From Anaerotruncus sp. (GTDB lineage Bacteria; Bacillota; Clostridia; Oscillospirales; Ruminococcaceae), in assembly GCA_021770005.1 (NCBI GenBank), contig JAETRV010000017.1, positions 1 through 51,587 of the forward strand: a DNA stretch of 51,587 bases, written 5' to 3'. How positions within the stretch are numbered: position 1 is the stretch's first letter; every line of letters starts with the position of its first letter. Positions 4,012 through 51,385 of this stretch are shown here, piece by piece. A program made the translations under genes and the position numbers. The notes beneath the pieces were generated by a model. The model had not been told where the DNA came from. It made no database searches and saw nothing but the letters and a program-made list of their open reading frames with translations.

Positions 4012-4335
4012 CCCTCTGTGAGAGCCTGTCTAGTATCTAAAGTTTTACGCGATTTTTTTGCTCCGGCCCAAGAGCCGATGCTTCGCGTCGGTTGGCCTAT
4101 GCACGCCGCTGCGGCGGCAGTCAAAAAATCGCGGTTTCCACTGCGAGCGCAGCGAAGCGTTTCGAGCGCAACCCGCCAAAGGCGGGCACTTAGCGCGAGA
4201 TAAGGCAGGGCCTTTGGCCGCGCTTCGCAAAGCGCGGAACACTTTATCCTGAGGAGCGTATTTTTGGAGTGAATTGCCGTCCTTCGGGCGGCAAGAGGGG
4301 GCTTTTTACAAGGAAAAAAGCCCCCCTGATGGAAA
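4012..4335 (-). repeat. Modular palindromic repeat, minus orientation
   Basis: The alr-murD gap (345 bp) is filled by this element. Read on the minus strand it starts with a hairpin GGGGGCTTTTTT/AAAAAGCCCCC (4295-4330), then TTGCCGCC/GGACGGCAA, then GCGCTTTGCGAAGCGC. It ends with a GCGATTTTTTG/CAAAAAAATCGC stem (arms at 4122-4132 and 4049-4060) whose loop contains further hairpins. The outer flank GTAAAACTTT matches copies at 5776, 28790 and 34830. Confidence 0.85.
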
Positions 4336-5775: not shown

Positions 5776-6280
5776 GGGGCTTTTTCACTTGCAAAAAGCC
5801 CTCTCTTGTCGCTTCGCGGCAATTCACCCGAAAAATGCGCTTCTCAGCGGGACGCGCCGCGCGCCCAGGCAGGTGTTCCGCCGCGTGCGCGCGGCGGCGA
5901 GGGCTCTGCCCCTCGACCCCGCGATTATCTGAAAAAAATCGAGTAACACTTTTGGGTTAAGGAAAAAAGCCGGCCCCAGCTTGCCGGGGTGGGGCTTACG
6001 GGGAGGGGGCGCTGCCCCCTAACCCGTAAGACAGCCCGCAGGGGCGTCGCGCGAAGCGCGCTTCGGGCCGCAAGGTCCGAGAAGCCCCGAGGAGGGCGCT
6101 CTGCGCCCAGACGTTTGGTCTGGGGCCAAACGTCCTGCTGTCCCTTGACCCCGCGATTTTTTACTCCGGCCTAAGAGCCGATCTATGCGCTAAGAGCCGC
6201 CTTCGGCGGTTGCGCTCCGAAACGCTCGCTGCGGCTCGCAGTGCGGCGGCAGTGAAAAAATCGAGTAAAACTTTTGATTT
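5776..6280 (+). repeat. Composite modular repeat between murD and the peptidase operon
   Basis: This fills the 544-bp gap. It opens with GGGGGCTTTTT/AAAAAGCCC (5776-5800), then TTGTCGC/GCGGCAA, a GCGCGC-rich stem, GGGCTCTGCCCC and a GATTATCTGAAAAAAATC stem. The ~200-bp GC-rich cassette follows (5959-6160). Last comes a second stem GCGATTTTTTAC...GTGAAAAAATCG (arms near 6153 and 6252) with hairpins nested in its loop, ending CGAGTAAAACTTTTG immediately before the next gene. Confidence 0.85.
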
Positions 6281-16094: not shown

Positions 16095-16325
16095 CTCCCA
16101 TGCGAAAAATCCGTCTGTTTCTCTATTTTCAAACAAGCCCTAAACCAAAAGTTTCGCCAGCCTTTGCTCCGGCCCAAGAGCCGCCTTCGGCGGTTGGCCT
16201 CTGCACGCCGATCTACGCGCTAAGTGCCGCCTTCGGCGGTTGCGCTCCGAAACGCTCGCTGCGGCTCGCAGTGCGGGGGCAGTCAAAGGCTGCGGGGTCG
16301 AGGGGCAAAGCCCCCGCAGCAGGGG
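16095..16325. repeat. MITE half-copy plus modular palindromic repeat
   Basis: Bases 16100-16141 match the right end of the element at 25830-25992 (GCGAAAAATCCGTC, then TTTCTCTATTTTCAAACAAG). They are followed by a modular repeat: flank AAAAGTTTCG, stem CAGCCTTTG (16158-16166) / CAAAGGCTG (16284-16292), nested hairpins such as GCCGCCTTCGGCGG, then GCGGGGTCGAGGGGC. The repeat runs into the 3' end of the superoxide dismutase gene. Confidence 0.8.
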
Positions 16326-16936
16326 AGGAAGTTTTCCTCCGCGAACTCCCAGTCGACCAGCTGCCACCAGCCGTCCAGATAAGCTTCTCGCCGGTTTTGG
16401 TAACCCAGATAATAGGCATGTTCCCAGACATCGGCGCAGAGGACCGGCCGCAACCCGCGGGAGAGGGGCGTCTCTTGATTAGGGGTGGAAAGGACGCAGA
16501 TTCCTCCATCCGGACAGACGGCAAGCCAGGCCCAGCCCGACCCGAACTGGCTGAGGGCGGTCTGGGTAAAGACATCGCGGAACCGCTCAAACGACCCATA
16601 ACACCGGTCGATCGCCTGCGCCAACCGCCCAATCGGGGCGGCCGATTTTGGGCATCCGGTCATACCGTCAAAATAAAGCTCATGGGAATAGACGCCGCCT
16701 GCATTCCGGCAGACCGCCGTACGAATCGGTGCAGGGATCATGCCGGGATAGAGCAGGAACTGTTCCAGCGTGCGGCAGTGAAGCTGCGGGCAGTTTTCGA
16801 GGGCTTTGTTGAGATTTTTCACGTAGGCTGCTTGGTGCCTGTCATGGTGGATCGTGACCGTCTCCGGGTCCAGATAGGGGACAAGGGCGTCACAGGTATA
16901 GGGCAGCGGCGCAAGCGAAAACGGATAATGATTCAT
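16283..16936 (-). CDS. Iron/manganese superoxide dismutase, C-terminus altered by a repeat
   Basis: Fe/Mn-type superoxide dismutase of 217 aa. Metal ligands are visible in TIHHDRHQAAYVKNLN (first His), VYSHELYFDGM (second His) and DVWEHAYYLGYQN (Asp and third His); QFGSGWAWLAV is also conserved. Oddities: the usual NHxxFW reads SHELYF, there are more cysteines than usual, and after WWQLVDWEFAEENF the last residues (PCCGGFAPRPRSL) are encoded by intergenic repeat sequence. The start lies 7 nt after the stop of the upstream amidase gene, so the two form an operon. The protein may be functional with an added tail. Confidence 0.85.
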   Translation of the reverse strand: MNHYPFSLAPLPYTCDALVPYLDPETVTIHHDRHQAAYVKNLNKALENCPQLHCRTLEQFLLYPGMIPAPIRTAVCRNAGGVYSHELYFDGMTGCPKSAAPIGRLAQAIDRCYGSFERFRDVFTQTALSQFGSGWAWLAVCPDGGICVLSTPNQETPLSRGLRPVLCADVWEHAYYLGYQNRREAYLDGWWQLVDWEFAEENFLPCCGGFAPRPRSL

Positions 16937-16943
16937 CGTGCGC

Positions 16944-17690
16944 CTACCTTTCCACCAGCTTGATATAGCGGCTGTCCGCATAGCCAACATTGCCGTAATA
17001 GTTGACGACATACCAGCCCTGCCACTCCCCAAGGACAGTGATGGGGTTTTCATCCCATGCGCGGGCAATCACCCGGGAAAGGGTGCTGGGGCGGGAGCGG
17101 ATATTCAGCCATCCGCTCTGCACATCAACTACCCCGCGGTAGGCGGGCTGCGCGGGCACGAACGGGATGCCGAAATATTCGGTCAGCGAGAGGACGACGT
17201 TCTGTGCGATCTTGGGAATATTGGTGCGGATCCAGTCGGCATCCTCCGGATTGTCGTGGTAGGCGAACTCAATCAGGACAGCCGGCGCGCGGGTTTTGGT
17301 CACCTCGCCCAGACGGGTCGTGGTCAGGGCCCGAACCTGGTCGGGAATGGGATAGATATCCCGCAGATTGTCTGCGATGATCTCTGCTGCGCGTTTCCCC
17401 TGCATGCTCATCGGCGCATAATAAACTTCGGTACCGCGCCGCTGGCCCGCTTCATCCTCGGGAGCGGCATTGGAGTGCAGCGCGAGATGCAGGTCGTAGT
17501 TGCCCTGATTCGACTGGACAATCGAGCTGGCCGCAGTCATATCCGGCGTGTTCCGGACATACCGGATTCCGCTGGAATTGAGGAACGGAACCATTGCATC
17601 AGCGATTAGGTTCATGTAATACTCTTCGTTTCCCCCGTTGACATAGGGGTTCCATTCTTGTGTGCTGGGGCTTAAGTAGATGAGTGGCAT
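16944..17690 (-). CDS. N-acetylmuramoyl-L-alanine amidase with SH3 domain
   Basis: Amidase_3-type zinc amidase that cleaves the MurNAc-L-Ala bond, followed by a bacterial SH3 domain. 248 aa from the ATG at MPLIYLSPSTQE, with GGAGGG just upstream. Zinc and catalytic residues are suggested by the glutamate after GGNEE, the LALHSNA histidine and VLIEFAYHDNPEDA. The SH3b repeat starts near WLNIRSRPS and ends YIKLVER. No signal peptide is seen, so release may occur on lysis, by holin, or in the mother cell during sporulation (inference). It is the first gene of a pair with superoxide dismutase. Confidence 0.85.
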   Translation of the reverse strand: MPLIYLSPSTQEWNPYVNGGNEEYYMNLIADAMVPFLNSSGIRYVRNTPDMTAASSIVQSNQGNYDLHLALHSNAAPEDEAGQRRGTEVYYAPMSMQGKRAAEIIADNLRDIYPIPDQVRALTTTRLGEVTKTRAPAVLIEFAYHDNPEDADWIRTNIPKIAQNVVLSLTEYFGIPFVPAQPAYRGVVDVQSGWLNIRSRPSTLSRVIARAWDENPITVLGEWQGWYVVNYYGNVGYADSRYIKLVER

Positions 17691-28719: not shown

Positions 28720-28754
28720 GAGTGGGGGAAGGGGCCGTCTTGTTGCTGGTTGCT

Positions 28755-29360
28755 GGGGCAAGCAGCGGGGGCTCCGCCCCTCGACCCCGCGATTTTTTGA
28801 AAAAATCGAGTAAAACTTTCGGTTTAAGGAAAAAAGCCGCTCCCAGCTTGCCGGGGTGGGGCCTACGGGGAGGGGGCGCTGCCCCCTAACCCGTAAGACA
28901 GCCCGCAGGGGCGTCGCGCGAAGCGCGCTTCGGGCCGCAGGCCCGAGAAGCCCCGAGGAGGGCGCTCTGCGCCCAGACGTTTGGTCTGGGGCCAAACGTC
29001 CTGCTGTCCCTTGACCCTGCGATTTTTTACTCCGGCCTAAGAGCCGACGCTGCGCGTCAGTTGACCTATGTACGCCGCGGCGGCAGTGAAAAAAATCGAG
29101 TAAAACTTTTTGGGTTAAGGAAAAAAGTCGGCCCCAGCTTGCCGGGGTGGGGCCTACGGGGAGGGGGCGCTGCCCCCTAACCCGTAAGACAGCCCGCAGG
29201 GGCGTCGCGCGAAGCGCGCTTCGGGCCGTAGGCCCGAGAAGCCCCGAGGAGGGCGCTCTGCGCCCAGACGTTTGGTCTGGGGCCAAACGTCCTGCTGTCC
29301 CTTGACCCTGCAATTTTTCGAGAAAATAGGCTCTAAAAGCTGCTCCCTTCGGCAGTAGAA
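28755..29360 (+). repeat. Modular repeat block with two near-identical 200-bp cassettes
   Basis: This fills the 663-bp mreB-mreC gap. It starts with GGGGGCTCCGCCCC and the stem CGATTTTTT/AAAAAATCG (28790-28809). Cassette 1 (28826-29024) follows, then a loop module flanked by GATTTTTTAC/GTGAAAAAAATC (29020-29098), then cassette 2 (29117-29315). The cassettes are almost identical to each other and to 5959-6160, with a period of 291 bp. No ORF is supported. Confidence 0.9.
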
Positions 29361-32986: not shown

Positions 32987-33000
32987 CGACATCAAAAGCT

Positions 33001-33075
33001 TTACGCAATTTTTCGGGTGAATTGCCGCCAAAGGCGGCAAGAGGGAGCTTTTTGCAAGAGAAAAAGCCCCTGTGG
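33001..33075 (-). repeat. Modular repeat fragment
   Basis: Minus orientation: GGGGCTTTTTC/GCAAAAAGCTCCC hairpin, TTGCCGCCTTTGGCGGCAATTCACCCGAAAAA shortened stem, ending TTGCGTAAAGCTTTTGA at 33001. It matches the left part of the copy at 34700. Confidence 0.75.
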
Positions 33076-39244: not shown

Positions 39245-39315
39245 GCAGACCAAAAGTTTCGTCCACCTTTACAAAGGTGGCGGGGGCGAGGGGCAGCGCC
39301 CCCGCCGCTACGGCT
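39245..39315 (-). repeat. Modular repeat end module
   Basis: Flank AAAAGTTTCG, stem CCACCTTT/AAAGGTGG (39263-39280), then GGGGGCGAGGGGCAGCGCCCCC. The same module with a different stem sequence is at 28770-28830 and 16150-16320. The rest of the 272-bp gap before rplM contains only the rplM promoter region. Confidence 0.75.
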
Positions 39316-39417
39316 TCAAAAATGTGATTTGCATCCGGAGCATTCAGGCGCATTTGGGAGAAAAAGCGTGAAAATCGAAGCGGTTGATTTGTAAATTAAA
39401 TTTTTGACAAAAAGGGG

Positions 39418-49346: not shown

Positions 49347-51053
49347 TTACTGGAGCAGCTGGAGCACGCTCTGGGGCTGCTGATTGGCCTGGGCCAGCAT
49401 CGCCTGGGCGGACTGGGTCAGAACATTGACCTTGGTGTACTCCATCATCATCTTGGCCATATCAGTGTCGCGGATACGGCTGTTGGCCGACTGAAGGTTC
49501 TCCGAAGCGGTGTCCAGGTTGTTGATGGTGTATTCCAGACGGTTCTGGGCAGCACCCAGTACTGCGCGCTGCTCGGAAACCTTGTCGATTGCAGAGCGGA
49601 TGGTATCGATTGCGCTAGCTGCGCCGTTAAGGGTAGAGATGTCCACATCGGCAACTCCAATACCAAGCGAGCTCATATTTTTGATGCTGATGCTGATCTT
49701 ATTAAAGCTGTCAGCAGTATCGCCGATCTGGAGGATTAGGCCGCGATTGCCGCCGGCAGTGCTCGAGCCGTTCGCAAGGCCGAGGGCGGAGGCAATGTCT
49801 TTCTCCCCGATATCCTTAAAGCTGAATTCGACCCCTTCGACATCGCCATTGTACTTGATGAGGAAGCCGCCATCGTCTGCTGCTTCAACAGTGAAATCGG
49901 CAGCTGTCAACTCGGTCAATCCAGATGCTTTATCAAAACCTTTACCTGTCAAACCAAGCTGCGTATTATATTGCGCAATCGCGCCTTGAATAGCTGTGTT
50001 GAGCGTTCCAACCGCAGCCGACATAGGACTTGCGGTTTGGCCGCTCGTCTTTTTAATGTCCGCTCCGAGCGAAACCACGACATCCTGACCATTGATAGTC
50101 ATCTGGAACGTGTCGCCGCTCTCCACAGTGCCGCCGTTGTACTCATTTCCAGCTTTGCTTTCGATTGCTTCACCCTTGGTAGAGCCGAACAGCACAGCGC
50201 CAAGTGTTTTCTCAATATTTGTGCTCTGATCGCATCCGGCGTATGAGAACTCCGAGGTAGAACCCTTGTTGGTGCTCTCAAAGGTAAAGTTGGTCCCGTC
50301 CCCGGTGATCTTAACGCTACCCTTCAAGCCCTGCGCCTGCATTTCATTGTTAAACAAATCTGTCAGTTTTTTTGCGACATCCTTTGACTGATCTGCGGTT
50401 AAAGCCGCACCAAATGCAGTGATGGAATCATACACGCCTTTCGCATCGCCCTTGGTCCAGTCAATCTCCAAGCTCTGTCCATCAATGATAAACAAATCTT
50501 TGGATGCCTGAGTTACAGCTGTCTTGAAATTGGCATTGATGGCAACATCTTTGGAAGCCGCCGAGAATTTGGAAACATCTGATGCACCATTGAAAACAAC
50601 ACCGTTTGCGCTTGCATTGCCGCCGCCCAGCGAACCATTCAGCAGTTTGATGCCGTTGAAATTGGTCGACTCAGAGATACGGTCAATTTCCTCCTGAAGT
50701 TTGTCAACCTCGAGCTGTAGCGACTCGCGGTTCAGTTCCGCATTGATGCCGTTGGCCGAACGGGTTGCCAGCTCAGTCATACGATTGAGCATGTTGTGAA
50801 CCTCGGTCAGCGCGCCTTCAGCGGTCTGTACGACCGAAATACCGTCCTGTGCGTTCAAAGAAGCGGTGTCCAGACCTTTGATCTGAGATTTCATCTTCTC
50901 CGAAATCGCCAGACCGGATGCGTCGTCGCCCGCGCGGTTGATCCGGTAACCGGAAGACAGCTTTTCCAGTGCCTTGGATACCTGCGAATTGTTCATGCCC
51001 AGCTGACGCTGAGAGTTGACCGCCATAATGTTGCTTCTTACTACCATTCCCAT
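49347..51053 (-). CDS. hag: Flagellin
   Basis: Filament subunit, 568 aa. The conserved N-terminal D0/D1 (MVVRSNIMAVNSQRQLG, then LSSGYRINRAGDDASGLAIS) and C-terminal D1/D0 (LGAAQNRLEYTINNLDTASENL, ending QSVLQLLQ) flank a large variable central region (about residues 140-470) that is Thr/Ser/Ala-rich and less GC-rich. This is longer than Bacillus Hag, with a surface-exposed insert. GGAGG lies 9 nt before the ATG. csrA lies upstream on the same strand; in Firmicutes CsrA represses hag translation, so the GGA-containing leader is a likely target (inference). No clear sigma-D promoter was found. Confidence 0.97.
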   Translation of the reverse strand: MGMVVRSNIMAVNSQRQLGMNNSQVSKALEKLSSGYRINRAGDDASGLAISEKMKSQIKGLDTASLNAQDGISVVQTAEGALTEVHNMLNRMTELATRSANGINAELNRESLQLEVDKLQEEIDRISESTNFNGIKLLNGSLGGGNASANGVVFNGASDVSKFSAASKDVAINANFKTAVTQASKDLFIIDGQSLEIDWTKGDAKGVYDSITAFGAALTADQSKDVAKKLTDLFNNEMQAQGLKGSVKITGDGTNFTFESTNKGSTSEFSYAGCDQSTNIEKTLGAVLFGSTKGEAIESKAGNEYNGGTVESGDTFQMTINGQDVVVSLGADIKKTSGQTASPMSAAVGTLNTAIQGAIAQYNTQLGLTGKGFDKASGLTELTAADFTVEAADDGGFLIKYNGDVEGVEFSFKDIGEKDIASALGLANGSSTAGGNRGLILQIGDTADSFNKISISIKNMSSLGIGVADVDISTLNGAASAIDTIRSAIDKVSEQRAVLGAAQNRLEYTINNLDTASENLQSANSRIRDTDMAKMMMEYTKVNVLTQSAQAMLAQANQQPQSVLQLLQ

Positions 51054-51184: not shown

Positions 51185-51385
51185 GGGTGGCAGGGGGCTT
51201 TTTCACTTGCAAAAAGCCCCCTCTCGTCACTGACTTGTGAGTCAGTGACGATTCACCCGAAAAATGCGCTTCTCAGGCGGGCGCGCCACGCGCCCAAGCA
51301 GGTGTTCCGCCGCGTGCGCGCGGCGGCGGGGGCTCTGCCCCTCGACCCCGCCACCTTTGAAAAGGTGGACGAAACTTTTAATTTG
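51185..51385 (+). repeat. Modular palindromic repeat between csrA and flagellin
   Basis: This occupies most of the 324-bp csrA-hag gap. It has the GGGGGCTTTTT/AAAAAGCCCCC hairpin, then GTCACTGACT/AGTCAGTGAC (in other copies this position is GCCGCC/GGCGGC), a GCGC-rich stem, GGGGCTCTGCCCC, and CCACCTTT/AAAGGTGG (51351-51368), followed by ACGAAACTTTTAATTTGG. Confidence 0.85.

Follow-up and report, generated by a model that had tools for sequence, protein, structure and literature searches.

A modular multi-hairpin repeat with covarying stems in Anaerotruncus and other Clostridia

The hairpin module at 16157..16292 of an Anaerotruncus sp. contig (JAETRV010000017.1; the window, meaning the whole stretch of 51,587 nucleotides that was analysed) forms the head of a longer interspersed repeat, which is modular, non-coding and built of several hairpins. 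Its folded shape, rather than its exact letters, persists across more than 100 genomic copies. We consider it probable that this is a non-autonomous BOX/REP-like non-coding repeat of Clostridia whose folded strand is recognised in trans and whose stem types are moved as blocks by recombination. In this proposal each copy would be a string of hairpins that may stop after a hairpin and may take in other repeats. The propagating machinery or a host factor would recognise one strand, RNA or single-stranded DNA, in its folded form, so that loops and junctions would be conserved and stem letters would be free to drift in pairs. A few stem versions would be amplified per genome; recombination, inversion and exchange between copies would then shift whole hairpins among loci, so that both arms would seem to change at once. 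The repeat would be mobilised in trans and its upkeep would be selfish. As a high-copy repeat in several families of one class it would be a natural mutant set with more than a dozen stem versions and fixed loops, and these variants would be a ready test of whether recognition is based on shape, loop or sequence. The repeat also bears on the question of when covariation among copies in the same genome reflects RNA function and when it reflects block copying.

Architecture, copies in the window and spread

The element is laid out as a head followed by two hairpins, P1 with a T-rich loop and P2 with the loop RGN; longer copies add P3, whose loop is CGCA, and additional hairpins. The head takes the form AAAGTTT or AAAGCTT. 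Short copies end after P2, with unique sequence directly beyond. The P1 stems of the source genome fall into five discrete subfamilies (CCACC, CAGCC, CCGCC, CGATT and CAATT), as listed from 131 rows, some of which are chance matches that lack a hairpin. For P2, the same genome has at least two forms, GGGGC/GCCCC and CCAAAGGC/GCCTTTGG, and P1 types pair up with several P2 and P3 types across copies. The context AAA(C/T)C is favoured before AAAAGTTT (273 nonredundant heads in the fetched loci); it either belongs to the element or reflects a preference for certain targets. Features of the window are collected in Table 1.

Table 1. Parts of the studied copy and further copies of the repeat in the window
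Feature	Position	Strand	Remark
Second repeat's end (TIR-B, ...CAAACAAGCCCTAA), just before the head	16102..16143	+	by eye
Head AAAAGTTTCG of the studied copy	16147..16156	+	
P1 5' arm CAGCCTTTG, subfamily T2	16158..16166	+	
Insert module D3 in the P1 loop, ~117 nt	16167..16283	+	
P1 3' arm CAAAGGCTG	16284..16292	+	
P2 module CGGGGTCGAGGGGC-AAA-GCCCCC	16293..16315	+	
T4 copy, loop insert, then variant right module CGGTTTCC	4038..4131	+	
Copy with imperfect P1, P2 and P3	5876..5953	-	covariance model 89.9 bits
T4 copy, loop insert, right flank CGGGGTCAAGGGAC	6140..6275	-	
T4 copy without insert	28744..28820	-	covariance model 74.5 bits
T4 copy with insert, in tandem with the 28744-28820 copy	29006..29110	-	
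Headless remnant (position of right flank)	29297-29310	-	
Damaged T5 head; first matching 3' arm belongs to a different type (T3)	32994..33037	+	
T4 copy, alternative P2 CCAAAGGC/GCCTTTGG, plus P3	34787..34865	-	covariance model 78.4 bits
T1 copy (CCACCTTT/AAAGGTGG)	39252..39340	+	covariance model 50.3 bits
T1 copy with P1, P2 and P3	51305..51379	-	covariance model 88.2 bits

The initial annotation had described the studied copy as one module with constant flanks that recurs at seven places in the window. The hairpin is real and is present at all seven, at a frequency far above chance by pattern counts against the reversed pattern, but in the studied copy the two P1 arms are parted by the loop insert. 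Loop inserts also occur in the copies at 4038 and 6154. The list of seven was correct as far as it went and missed the copies at 5876-5953, 29020-29110 and 32994-33037 (damaged head) and the remnant at 29297-29310. The flanks proved not to be constant: CGATTTTTT copies have the head AAAGTTTTAC and not AAAAGTTTCG, and the right module differs, being CGGTTTCC at 4038 and 34834 and CGGGGTCAAGGGAC at 6154. We looked for P3 after the P2 module of the studied copy and saw none in the sequence. Counting itself, the stretch 16157-16292 is matched 47 times in the genome, mostly in part.

A superoxide dismutase reading frame (16283-17068, minus strand) has its listed stop at 16283-16285, inside the element; given this frame, the last residues of the protein would come from P2 and the P1 3' arm. 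The flagellin gene at 49347-51053 (minus strand) adjoins the copy at 51305-51379. Positions 28776-29310 are made up of tandem units of ~230-290 bp (copy, spacer module AGCAGGACGTTTGGCCCCAGACC..., copy), and similar tandem units, each repeating a locus-specific segment, were seen at G3 loci and at locus L111.

Exact matches to AAAAGTTT-N(11-41)-CGGGGTCGAGGGGC number 40 in the source genome (17 forward and 23 reverse; assembly of 2.93-Mb, 96.5% complete, 155 contigs) and those to the reversed pattern 0. When 2 mismatches are allowed, the right flank GCGGGGTCGAGGGGC is found at 188 places, compared to 26 for its reversed pattern. Copies were taken around 100 of these 188 places and some insert places, so that per-type counts are partial. 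A covariance model recovered at least 116 copies in the source genome and 113 in Anaerotruncus sp. G3. It detected copies in nine of the 11 sampled genomes of the genus, with numbers from 0 to >100, and in 13/245 genomes sampled from the class (with stricter filters and 19 scored candidates per genome). Within the family, 2/197 genomes contain the exact pattern. A scan of named genomes with fixed flanks and a free interior gave at least 96 stretches; among the matches listed (80), the titles are Clostridia, Ruminococcus, Oscillospiraceae, Anaerotruncus and the like. Viral contigs scanned with the pattern gave 0 matches. Many contigs in the named-genome scan end within ~100 nt of a copy, and the repeat seems to break metagenome assemblies. 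The 105 scan matches that were read, together with the source genome and G3, make a set of 168 copies with 52 distinct interiors; its 44 genome labels are an overcount, as 16 title-less loci were labelled singly.

Covariation of the stems and polarity of the loops

The outer P1 arms are perfectly complementary in 159/165 parsed copies (parsing failed for 3 of the 168 records, and five were unparsed in a further parsing step). Fifteen stem types were parsed, among which two pairs differ in arm length only. In an arm-swap test on 13 P1 stems, 5.0 of 5 pairs were kept by the native arms and 2.33 by exchanged arms, a result equalled by 0 of 100000 permutations. An alignment of 29 rows, chosen out of 34 (14 genome labels) with interiors limited to 24 nt, supports three helices with 99.3% of cells paired (82.4% when shuffled); sliding by 1-3 columns gives at most 53.9%. 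The rows absent from this set are L054, L061, L071, L073 and L122, of which L071 is mismatched near the P1 tip. Both sides changed in 11 of the 21 pairs, and the covariation score is 0.504, compared to 0.153 after shuffling. One measure ran the other way: further pair types number 23 in the alignment and 26.6 in the shuffled sets, as would be expected from shuffled arms, which create many odd pairs. RNAalifold returned the same three helices with two extra pairs. Parsimony on a FastTree tree of all 34 rows counted 28 joint-change branches against 6.2 +- 2.0 in a null that distributes changes by branch weight (5000 runs, highest value 14). Because the tree derives from the tested columns and the elements recombine, this count is a guide rather than a formal R-scape result.

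The left arm of P2 was fixed by the search anchor, which places P2 outside the 29-row test. A separate P2 scan anchored on the inner GGC/GCC found 43/108 perfect stems, with 12.2 expected from re-dealt arms. P3, which was never used as an anchor, shows 19 distinct perfect inner stems, nine of them in the fetched loci of the source genome (some matches lie outside elements). Covariation tests over the collected copies, made without the stem as anchor, confirmed that both arms change while pairing is kept in P1, and they added P3 as a second covarying hairpin that the initial annotation had not named. Single mismatches in P3 are 7 G-T and 3 A-C (nonredundant, some outside elements). G-T is not clearly favoured, and the mismatch types therefore do not separate RNA from DNA. 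P5, P6 and the insert stems hardly exceeded re-dealt arms in a crude test, with 30, 68 and 21 perfect stems compared to 22.7, 58.0 and 19.3.

Compensatory change within one genome had been proposed from the window copies. The matched arms are there, but the five discrete subfamilies mean that few independent compensatory events took place inside the source genome; the strong covariation comes from cross-genome comparison. A head meets a 3' arm of its own type in 123/130 cases in the source genome (5 more with none) and in 85/89 cases in G3 (6 more with none). Some insert-bearing copies are chimeric, with unmatched arms of two subfamilies, and pairing is thus not needed at every locus.

The loops behave differently from the stems. 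The P3 loop reads CGCA in 76/83 perfect hairpins and its reverse complement TGCG in 0. Reversed P1 loops are single cases, for example CAATTTTT-CGAG instead of CTCG in 1/65. Since loop polarity is kept, the fold has a sense strand. The conservation of loop identity and polarity alongside drifting stems points to selection for the folded strand, which bears out that part of the earlier interpretation. If template switching or quasi-palindrome correction alone rewrote one arm from the other, with no selection for the fold, the scarcity of mismatched intermediates (6/165) and the occurrence of a few in-place loop reversals would be accounted for, and hairpins can be created and maintained by template switching according to the available part of PMC8794818. 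Such copying predicts, however, that loops and junctions drift or flip like stems, contrary to the P3 counts, and most of the distant copies share the order P1-P2-P3 and P3-like ends (20 loci, by eye). We regard copying alone as improbable. Pure palindrome correction as the whole story was rejected on the basis of loop polarity.

Turnover, block exchange and gene context

Aligned gene stretches of the source genome and G3 are mostly 85-92% identical, and copies of the repeat turn over fast between the two. For 41 heads of the source genome with orthologous G3 flanks, type and orientation are both retained in G3 at 6. The G3 site has any head in the same orientation in 18 cases and no head by the finder in 18; the finder allows one mismatch, and the 18 headless sites include L161, yet at its G3 site there is a T1 hairpin whose head has diverged. 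The G3 sequence used was fetched around G3's own copies.

Block exchange was observed at single loci. Between L100 (source genome) and L208 (G3) the local spacer is inverted along with its T1 hairpin; next to the conserved 3' flank stands a T5 stem in the source genome and a T1 stem in G3. At L161 and its G3 counterpart L190 the P1 types agree, while both arms of P2 and of P3 differ; the P1 loop is filled by an insert in L161 and empty at the G3 site (L011/L190). A copying process that rewrites both arms at once had been suggested as the alternative to selection. Within the source genome the joint change of both arms is due mainly to the existence of whole hairpins as subfamilies and to their exchange as blocks, which the orthologous G3 sites display, and not to many stepwise compensations. 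The first observation was real but incomplete, and its interpretation is partly supported, each of its two alternatives being right in part.

Head-to-head pairs within 200 nt are heterotypic in 13/13 cases (10 in the source genome, 3 in G3), each joining an AT-type and a GC-type head. The chance of a heterotypic pair is ~0.45, which gives 8e-5 for 12 independent pairs (one locus is shared). In the available part of Di Nocera et al. (PMC3733652), a heterodimer preference is described for many REP families without obvious explanation, and hairpin-nuclease protection is suggested; the present repeat bears on this puzzle of REP-like dimers that prefer unlike partners. A bolder reading, to which we give a small chance, is an analogue of SINEs in bacteria: the element would be copied via folded RNA or single-stranded DNA and known by its loop string, its stems would drift in pairs, and co-existing stem dialects would avoid like partners in head-to-head pairs.

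The stable hairpins would fit a cis-acting RNA (terminator, leader or attenuator) that is maintained for adjacent genes. The upstream gene lies on the strand of the element in 104/169 cases (source genome 72/109, G3 32/60; crude ORF calls), an excess that leaves room for a 3'-end role. The downstream gene lies on this strand in 77/169 cases, as at random. These counts use 169 of the 230 heads, as heads inside ORFs or without a gene on both sides were dropped; heads inside a called ORF number 14/135 in the source genome and 33/95 in G3 (crude ORF calls). P1 has no T-run right after it: on the head strand CGG or a near variant follows, and on the opposite strand TTTT lies ~7-8 nt past the stem. 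Rfam gave 0 matches in the window at the gathering threshold, and six matches in four loci with E up to 1, none over the element by position. The patchy presence and the few orthologous sites with type and orientation kept also speak against this reading. We hold a cis-acting RNA to be very unlikely, and a locus-specific regulatory RNA is unlikely. A regulatory RNA for the neighbouring genes was dropped on orientation and turnover.

Terminal repeats, mobilisers and known repeats

Some copies are bounded by a terminal inverted repeat (TIR). In the source genome GAGCCTGTTT (up to 2 mismatches, within ~30 nt upstream) precedes 29/88 AT-type heads and 1/47 GC-type heads. In G3 it precedes 3/53 AT-type and 5/42 GC-type heads, so the link of the TIR to AT-type heads does not hold there. 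TIR matches number 94 in the source genome (reversed pattern 1) and 15 in G3 (control 2). Of 32 listed TIR pairs, TIR-B and chance pairs included, a TAA or TTA duplication was seen by eye in six; for TIR-less copies no target-site duplication was shown. In a relative, an 847-bp element has similar ends and a stop-containing DDE_Tnp_1 match. A TIR pair was present at one of the 12 DDE_Tnp_1 loci scanned. The TIR elements are presumably IS5-like.

These data are what one would expect if the repeat were the interior of an ordinary MITE that an IS5-like transposase moves via the TIRs. Against it stand the near absence of the TIR at GC-type heads of the source genome and the 15 TIR matches of G3 beside its 113 copies. 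Twelve copies from outside the genus, viewed by eye, have no such TIR within 40 nt upstream. The one DDE_Tnp_1 match of the source genome contains stops. We think an ordinary MITE is a poor candidate, and a simple MITE for all copies was rejected, the TIR being on a subset only. As the hairpin string occurs without this TIR in other genera (by eye), the TIR form resembles a MITE that has captured the string.

We found neither an element-specific transposase nor any other dedicated mobiliser. No RAYT (Y1 transposase) was found in the source genome, in which a gene may be missed (96.5% complete, 155 contigs). The sole Y1 transposase match is a partial PF01797 at a contig edge (L097, G000:C73, contig start), which by eye we take to be an IS200-type TnpA.

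Several known systems resemble the repeat. BOX of Streptococcus pneumoniae, in the available part of PMC3049150, is likewise a modular, high-copy, small, interspersed repeat with predicted stem-loops, with repeats nested in one another and a varying number of modules. BOX differs in belonging to another host group and in its reported TIRs and target duplications, which here concern a subset only; the comparison is by description. The text of that paper contains neither compensat- nor covari-. The REP GTAG/CGTC families, as described in the available part of PMC3733652, share with the repeat the short palindromes, the subfamilies that differ in the stem and the head-to-head dimers; their preference for heterodimers in many families resembles the heterotypic pairs. 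Unlike REP, the present repeat has several different hairpins in fixed order per element, loop inserts and no RAYT found. The palindrome has no GTAG foot; before the stem stand CGT, CGC, ACT, GGT, GAT etc. (168 copies, 52 distinct interiors, by eye). Membership in the GTAG REP was ruled out, with neither tag nor RAYT. MITEs of IS5-like elements resemble the TIR-bounded subset of copies with its likely 3-bp duplication; the repeat differs in a hairpin string that is TIR-less in other genera and in a structure-conserved interior. Structured-RNA candidates of the human microbiome, obtained by comparative structure search, are palindromic like the repeat; the four examples in the available part of PMC8040213 are mostly or entirely from Bacteroidetes and were compared by description only. 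A limited search by title and abstract found no literature on such repeats in Clostridia, Faecalibacterium or Ruminococcaceae, and a search for the element sequence itself gave nothing relevant by title among the papers listed.

A second repeat family of 163 bp with the ends AGGGCTTGTTTGAAAATAG / TTTTTCAAACAGCCCCT was noted at six loci (L112, L148, L157, L179, L187 and L212). It abuts the head of the hairpin element in several loci.
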